64,000 nucleotides of DNA from Sphingomonas daechungensis. GTDB lineage: Bacteria > Pseudomonadota > Alphaproteobacteria > Sphingomonadales > Sphingomonadaceae. Numbering within the stretch: the stretch's first letter is position 1; every line of letters begins with the position of its first letter. The position numbers and the translations under genes are program-made. The stretch is taken from assembly GCF_014489495.1 (NCBI RefSeq), contig NZ_CP060780.1:2181001-2245000 (forward strand), written 5' to 3'. The notes under the pieces are model-generated. The model searched no databases and had not been told where the DNA came from. It worked only from the letters and a program-made list of their open reading frames with translations. This document shows, piece after piece, positions 25,152 through 25,303 of the stretch.

Positions 25152-25303
25152 GAGTCAGGCCTGACTCGCGGTCAAGCGAACAGAGGTTAACGCCGCCTGG
25201 AGGTGGTTGAGAACGAAGAGAGTCCGCTAAGACTCGACCACAAGATGTTGAGTCTCCTGGGACTCCCGAGACTCAACCTGTGGTGGTGTGACTCAAAGGA
25301 CTC
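25152..25303. promoter_or_regulatory. Cluster of nine GANTC methylation sites upstream of ccrM
   Basis: GANTC occurs at 25152, 25163, 25220, 25231, 25250, 25261, 25270, 25290 and 25299, so nine sites in 152 bp against a chance expectation of about 0.6. The first pair forms a perfect 16-base palindrome (GAGTCAGGCCTGACTC). The cluster starts 24 bp upstream of the ccrM ATG and runs into the last codons of rnhB. GANTC sites are known in the ccrM leader of Caulobacter, where methylation affects transcription; here the density is far higher. The likely role is methylation-dependent control of ccrM, possibly with GcrA; this is inference. Confidence 0.8.
25248..25276. repeat. Inverted repeat within the GANTC cluster at the rnhB stop
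   Basis: Perfect 9-bp arms TTGAGTCTC and GAGACTCAA flank 11 bases that themselves contain the quasi-palindrome GGGACTCCC. Each arm includes one GANTC and the loop a third. It overlaps the rnhB stop codon, so as RNA it could be a terminator; as DNA it is a dense methylation target. Confidence 0.6.

Follow-up and report, generated by a model that had tools for sequence, protein, structure and literature searches.

A dense, ordered row of GANTC sites upstream of ccrM in Sphingomonas daechungensis and other Sphingomonadales

The ccrM locus and its GANTC sites

The 64,000-nucleotide stretch of the Sphingomonas daechungensis genome analysed here (the window; positions 2,181,001–2,245,000 of contig NZ_CP060780.1) carries the GANTC adenine methyltransferase gene ccrM next to rnhB, with nine GANTC sites in the 152 bp from 25152 to 25303 upstream of the methylase gene. 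The features of the region are shown in Table 1. Read in the direction of ccrM, the sites are S1, S2, S3, an additional site, S4, the S5 pair, S6 and S7. All nine positions given in the original prediction were confirmed, as was its statement that the row reaches into rnhB, with S1 and S2 lying within that gene and S3 overlapping its stop codon (25273–25275). The tenth GANTC that it placed nearby, at 25945, is also present.

Table 1. Coordinates of the sites and genes at the ccrM locus (window positions).
Feature	Position	Strand	Remarks
ccrM, GANTC adenine methyltransferase	23989..25127	-	Start codon 25125-25127; split by a frame change in the assembly; Pfam N6_N4_Mtase and RAMA
Putative -10, CACTTT (pattern CAnnnT)	25147..25152	-	17-bp spacer from TTGAC; shares its first C with the end of S7; placed by spacing alone
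GANTC site S7	25152..25156	-	Abuts the putative -10
GANTC site S6	25163..25167	-	Lies 11 bp (about one helical turn) from S7, within the putative -35/-10 spacer
Putative -35, TTGAC	25171..25175	-	CTTGAC ranks with the best-conserved columns of the alignment (61 rows)
S5 dyad, GAGTC-N6-GACTC (25220 and 25231)	25220..25235	-	S5-type site in 35/61 regions, N variable
GACTCAACATCTTGTGG block containing S4 (25250)	25238..25254	-	Conserved block in the alignment
Additional GANTC between S3 and S4	25261..25265	-	Missing from the nearest sampled relative, L115
Site S3 (25270) with conserved CACACCAC/TTGAGTC block	25270..25289	-	Partly inverted copy of the S4 block
GANTC site S2, rnhB 3' end	25290..25294	-	Labelled in 16/61 regions
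GANTC site S1, rnhB 3' end	25299..25303	-	Near-invariant columns in 61 regions
rnhB (ribonuclease HII)	25273..25943	-	Pfam RNase_HII; frame change in the assembly; neighbour not required for the array

The 269-amino-acid C-terminal reading frame of ccrM matches the NCBIfam CcrM model NF050803 with an E-value of 4.5e-140 and 466 bits, which is below the model cut-off of 830 bits, the frame being partial. Frame changes split ccrM (23989–25127), rnhB (25273–25943) and also gcrA (G000:C1:29006–29622), and ccrM is free of internal stops in nearly all of the relatives listed. Because ccrM is intact in these relatives and the genome is 86.6% complete, the frame changes suggest assembly indels and not real loss.

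The window holds 156 GANTC sites in total, and no 152-bp stretch outside the cluster contains more than four. A third-order Markov model, fitted to the window minus the array region, was used to simulate sixty 64-kb sequences; the highest count reached was five GANTC in 152 bp, with a mean maximum of 3.9. The model overproduces the site (a mean of 208 per sequence vs 156 in the real window) and is therefore lenient to chance. A Poisson estimate puts nine sites in 152 bp at 1.3e-10 per position, or roughly 1e-5 per 3-Mb genome. GANTC is the most raised of the 16 palindromic pentamer types in 25128–25303 (9 vs 0.43 expected), followed by AGNCT (3 vs 0.47 expected).

The original prediction was silent on two properties of the sites, their dyad pairing and the fixed central base described below. 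All nine read GAGTC or GACTC, as do 71 of the 156 sites in the whole window with these nine counted in, and three GAGTC-N6-GACTC dyads are found at 25152, 25220 and 25250. This dyad occurs nowhere else in the 3.0-Mb genome (assembly 86.6% complete), in which the reversed control pattern has one match.

Conservation in Sphingomonadales and across the class

We collected 80 named ccrM loci as the best protein matches, a sample biased to near relatives; the closest named matches of the window are Sphingomicrobium, Sphingomonadales and Sphingomonas records, which place it among Sphingomonadales. Thirty-seven of the 80 were taken as Sphingomonadales (L004–L039 minus L024, plus L041 and L044), those with no stated order (L011, L021, L023, L028, L033, L036 and L039) being assigned according to where they ranked among the matches. 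A second sample covered 61 genomes of the genus, that of S. daechungensis included, of which 60 had a match; 30 loci were used, 29 of them from relatives. L024, a second ccrM copy, and L040, labelled Hyphomicrobiales, both with no sites, were excluded before alignment. Removal of six near-duplicates (L028, L029, L031, L034, L122 and L140) from 67 regions, the window included, left 61 for alignment.

These 61 non-redundant upstream regions, taken as Sphingomonadales, contain three to nine GANTC sites each at largely fixed positions; L005, and L140 among the near-duplicates removed, have just three. Among the 61 rows the alignment columns are G60 A60 G61 T60 C61 for S1, G61 A60 G61 T59 C60 for S3 and G56 A55 C59 T53 C61 for S4. 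No constraint is seen on the bases separating S3 from S4, where some other loci (such as L117 and L119) also have a GANTC. Conserved blocks stand beside the sites, GCCACACC before S3 and AACATCTTGTGG after S4. Site labels assigned by regular expression undercount, with S3 labelled in 54 of 61 regions vs 59–61 per base in the alignment columns. Although a MAFFT alignment may favour aligned motifs, the spacing counts are alignment-free: across 60 loci the commonest GAGTC-to-GAGTC distance is 29 bp and the commonest GAGTC-to-GACTC distance 20 bp, with 43 pairs each. The array is the densest 152 bp of its own locus in 59 of 60 loci, with one tie. Sites S1–S5 make up a platform of oriented GAGTC/GACTC at largely fixed distances, about 45–130 bp upstream of the putative -35. 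Judged from these sequences, the array is a conserved, putative promoter architecture.

Family and class samples were run to offset the bias of the best-match loci. The family sample comprised one genome per genus (29 genomes, 28 besides our own), and the class sample one genome per family (76 genomes, 66 with a match at E <= 0.001); 55 full-length or long matches were taken from the latter besides our own, 54 of them with usable upstream DNA and one from the family of the window. Counting GANTC upstream of ccrM in relatives had been proposed together with the original prediction, and the same enrichment was found: the family sample has a mean of 6.1 GANTC in the ~370 bp around the ccrM start region, and at least two in 28 of 28 genomes. 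The class sample has a mean of 3.2. TTGAC-N14-GANTC, the core of the putative promoter, was found in 22 of the 28 family-sample genomes and in 18 of 54 in the class sample, and by this pattern it is widespread in the class beyond Sphingomonadales. The platform was seen in Sphingomonadales alone, the other orders having been inspected by eye with no trained model. Three loci labelled rhizobial (L050, L057 and L062) are without the core and have TAACC-type sequence instead, in keeping with the CtrA sites reported before ccrM in rhizobia (PMC2877005).

Putative core promoter and candidate readers of the sites

From TTGAC, a 17-bp spacer and CAnnnT we infer a sigma-70-like core, with two GANTC sites in the spacer one helical turn apart and S7 touching the putative -10. 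Both spacer sites are present in 44 of 60 Sphingomonadales loci and 24 of 43 other named loci. Where the pair occurs, S7 stands at a distance of exactly 19 from TTGAC in all 44 Sphingomonadales loci and in 22 of the 24 others, while the gap from TTGAC to S6 varies by about one base. The base after S7 is A in 44/44 Sphingomonadales loci, 23/24 other loci with the pair and 18/18 of the class sample, and T is commonest four positions past that A (18 of 28 in the family sample). The fixed A, the later T and the 17-bp spacing point to a -10 of the form CAnnnT whose first base is the last base of S7. On the opposite strand S7 reads GAKTC in 44/44 Sphingomonadales loci, 22/24 others with the pair, 18/18 of the class sample and 19/22 of the family sample; the exceptions, in three of the 22 family-sample genomes and two of the 24 other loci, have T as N. 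S6 and S7 lie between TTGAC and a -10 assigned by spacing, and conserved methylation sites stand at fixed positions in the putative promoter.

The S6/S7 pair is missing in 16 of 60 loci, and neither site was found in the searched place in 2 of 66. In the Sphingomonas PP-CE group and S. faeni (L027–L031 and L034), TTGACG stands directly before GAGTC and S7 is absent; going by these sequences, upstream sites can persist after loss of the spacer pair.

CcrM accepts any central base in its target GANTC. At S5 and S6 the central base varies and GANTC is kept, as expected of a methylation site. Sites labelled by regular expression have G at S1 and at S3 (54/54 each) and C at S4 (47/47), against a background of G or C in 230/699. 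Two overlapping constraints seem to be at work, one keeping the sites methylatable and the other set by a protein sensitive to GAGTC polarity.

In Caulobacter, GcrA is proposed to act as an activator at methylated promoters that carry YGAKTCG (PMC7987155). None of the nine window sites has this sequence (YGAKTCK fits three and YGAKTC seven), and among the 60 loci it is found at 16 of 370 array sites vs 174 of 562 in the remainder of those loci. Since the central bases of the platform are fixed and YGAKTCG is scarce, a further reader besides CcrM is likely, and GcrA acting as in Caulobacter is probably not that reader; either the flank preference of GcrA differs in Sphingomonadales or another protein is involved. 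GcrA is encoded in the genome, with PF07750 above its cut-off in two neighbouring pieces in different frames, and the family is present in 29/29 family genomes, our own included; among 14 control genomes, the model gave a match in Sulfolobus too.

The gcrA upstream regions have a mean of 0.4 GANTC in 250 bp (25 of 30 gcrA loci, those with a recognisable start), a different length from the ~370 bp counted at ccrM, which includes some coding DNA. There is no GANTC in the 250 bp upstream of gcrA in S. daechungensis itself (L164). We note that gcrA upstream DNA is almost free of GANTC in this family (L164, L168–L193) vs the six sites reported in A. tumefaciens, and the GANTC-dense node seems to differ between lineages.

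CtrA and DnaA were also considered. The full CtrA box TTAA-N6-8-TTAA is absent from the window region and found in 2 of 60 loci, and a CtrA-type promoter was rejected on this ground; a TTAACC/GTTAAC half site is present in 37 of 60. A pattern search of the window region found no DnaA box, and DnaA control was likewise dropped for this locus. A perfect DnaA box (TGTGGATAA) lies in or just after the ccrM core promoter in 11 of 60 loci (L014, L017, L022, L023, L025, L026, L033, L035, L039, L041 and L044), following TTGAC in place of S6/S7 in L017, L023 and L035, and hinting at lineage-specific DnaA control of ccrM.

Methylation feedback and its alternatives

The original prediction took the region for a methylation-state sensor for ccrM. 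The enrichment in relatives, the many fixed spacings and the two sites in the putative -35/-10 spacer lend this part of it some support; the fixed and oriented central bases at S1, S3 and S4, which a pure methyl-counting sensor would not need, and the scarcity of YGAKTCG do not fit, so that the sensor reading appears plausible but incomplete. Sensing, and the graded or switch-like response that the prediction added, are hypothetical. A dense and conserved row of the enzyme's own target sites suggests that ccrM output may answer to the level of DNA marking. Our verdict is that the array is a real, strong and lineage-specific variant of a methylation-responsive promoter, of which we infer the mechanism and the sign of the feedback.

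Passage of a replication fork must hemimethylate all of the array sites together, and CcrM must restore them. The reading that we favour, tentatively and at slightly under an even chance, is that the array is the control region of ccrM, composed of the core and the oriented platform, and that it is on when hemimethylated and lower when fully methylated, giving negative feedback. CcrM would methylate the array sites, and their joint hemimethylation upon fork passage would raise ccrM transcription; newly made CcrM would then remethylate S6, S7 and the platform, and the lower activity of the fully methylated promoter would close the loop. Part of the effect may be direct, on RNA polymerase at S6/S7, and the other part would go through a protein reading GAGTC with polarity at S1, S3 and S4, which could be GcrA with a different flank preference or another factor.

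We hold the sign of this feedback with modest confidence, favouring it because of the Caulobacter model paper and the precedent of the A. tumefaciens gcrA promoter. In the former, ccrM is transcribed solely from a hemimethylated chromosome (PMC2217572); in the latter, with six GANTC in 250 bp, methylation is reported to lower activity, even in E. coli (PMC11514494). GANTC between -10 and -35 goes with activation at 40–60 minutes in Caulobacter (PMC4287350). We count against the favoured reading the fixed central bases at S1, S3 and S4, unexplained by methylation alone, the 16 of 60 loci without the S6/S7 pair, the 2 of 66 with neither of the two in the searched place, and the low count of three sites in L005 and L140. 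A more far-reaching version, which we regard as speculative and rather improbable, would make the array a once-per-genome cis element that meters the methylase's own work. Up to nine phased sites would be read by methylation state via a GAGTC-binding protein that responds to polarity and is not GcrA acting as in Caulobacter, and ccrM output would reflect local remethylation after the fork; in Sphingomonadales the GANTC-dense sensing node of the GcrA–CcrM circuit would then be ccrM, a place taken by gcrA in Agrobacterium.

The main rival to hemimethylated-on negative feedback is positive feedback through GcrA. In that scheme GcrA, bound to sites methylated on one or both strands, would bring in sigma-70 RNA polymerase, and expression of ccrM would require methylation of its own promoter. 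A GANTC beside the -10 would suit a factor that binds both sigma2 and methylated DNA (PMC7403470), the GAKTC opposite S7 is the rule in Sphingomonadales (44/44) and among other loci with the pair (22/24), GcrA is found in all 29 family genomes, and ccrM has been predicted as a core GcrA target outside Caulobacterales (PMC7987155). YGAKTCG is scarce in the array, however (0/9 in the window; 16/370 vs 174/562 elsewhere), and by our reasoning a methylase that needs its own methylation risks permanent loss; we think this reading fairly unlikely. The fixed and oriented central bases at S1, S3 and S4, together with the conserved flanking CACACC and TTGTGG blocks, would also suit an operator array for a sequence-specific factor whose motif contains GAGTC, with methylation incidental or the sites shielded from CcrM, much as binding of MucR keeps GANTC promoter sites unmethylated (PMC5172544). 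Such an operator leaves unaccounted for the GANTC kept with a varied N at S5 and S6 and the S6/S7 pair found in other orders with other N and no platform, and a nine-fold target of the neighbouring enzyme within an unrelated motif is hard to credit; we give this explanation a rather low probability.

Two simpler explanations fare worse. That two sites are inside rnhB and a third overlaps its stop codon might point to a chance cluster or a by-product of the rnhB coding sequence, but the simulation, the conservation and the behaviour of the array where its neighbour has moved leave this a negligible likelihood. The array is kept in nine loci with rnhB displaced or not found nearby. In seven of them (L008, L009, L010, L035, L039, L044 and L139) the best rnhB match ends 866–1497 bp before the anchor and the rnhB frame 521–1149 bp before the ccrM start; between rnhB and ccrM, L044 carries a Na/Ca-exchanger gene and L035 a short-chain dehydrogenase gene. 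No rnhB match was found in the flank of L022 and L032. Coding constraint in rnhB was ruled out as the cause, since the array stays with ccrM in these nine loci. The inverted repeat around S3/S4 that is visible in the window could in principle form an RNA hairpin or an rnhB terminator. Yet where both sites occur (47 regions), an arm matches its true partner no better than a swapped one (7.94 vs 7.97 of 13; 1308 of 2000 shuffles at least as good), giving no RNA covariation, and no T-run follows the repeat in the window; the hairpin was rejected on the arm-swap test, and this explanation is very improbable.

Sphingomonas PP-CE-1G-424 has a ccrM with six sites on contig C1 and a second ccrM with none on a 40-kb contig; the latter copy (L024/L199) is possibly plasmid or prophage borne.

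The few GANTC sites of the Caulobacter ccrM leader differ from the dense, ordered array described here. Like that promoter, at which the methylase gene probably responds to its own methylation ('most probably', in the wording of PMC3973325), the array would follow the same feedback logic; unlike the CtrA-activated Caulobacter promoter, it has no full CtrA box in the window. The Caulobacter GcrA/CcrM sigma-70 promoters (mipZ, podJ and ctrA P1) share a GANTC in or near the -35/-10 spacer and a genome encoding both GcrA and CcrM. Their site numbers are lower, one in ctrA P1, two in mipZ and four in P169 vs nine here (PMC3667746, PMC4287350 and PMC5172544). The array sites, moreover, mostly lack the YGAKTCG flank, and here it is ccrM itself that is targeted. 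The A. tumefaciens gcrA promoter resembles the array as a GANTC-dense promoter of a cell-cycle epigenetic regulator (PMC11514494), the dense promoter being that of gcrA there and that of ccrM here. The predicted alphaproteobacterial GcrA regulon likewise counts ccrM among its core members on the strength of extended GANTC motifs in the ccrM promoter; its available text scores the presence, number and conservation of motifs, and not an ordered array, fixed spacing, a platform or a fixed N (PMC7987155).

Neither the idea of ccrM feedback nor the prediction of ccrM as a GcrA target in many orders (PMC7987155) is new. The ordered platform, the fixed polarity and the spacing rule appear undescribed in the open literature searched, and that literature yielded no study of the effect of methylation on ccrM in Sphingomonadales. 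As a DNA target the element is small, conserved and mutable; it belongs to a large order and comes with a comparison across the class. Should the array sense methylation, it would offer a compact natural example of an enzyme that gauges its product on DNA. The polarity of its sites also predicts a new or re-specified reader protein.

TTGAC-N1-5-GANTC-N3-8-GANTC occurs once in the genome, at ccrM (reversed control, one match), and the S4 block with up to one mismatch is matched elsewhere only by the inverted copy at 25270 and one GANTC-free site. GACTCAAN4TTGTGG with up to two mismatches led to no other GANTC arrays in the genome (11 and 11 matches vs 12 and 17 for the reversed control), and the search for TTGAC-N14-GANTCA revealed no ccrM-like regulon. 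The latter pattern is found in three places (reversed control, none): at ccrM, near open reading frames with no assigned identity, and just upstream of a phage-integrase gene, where a TTGAC-N14-GACTCA core lies at 1500–1526 of L286 (G000:C1:1009299–1009323). This last occurrence is perhaps a mobile element with a methylation-responsive promoter, or perhaps chance.
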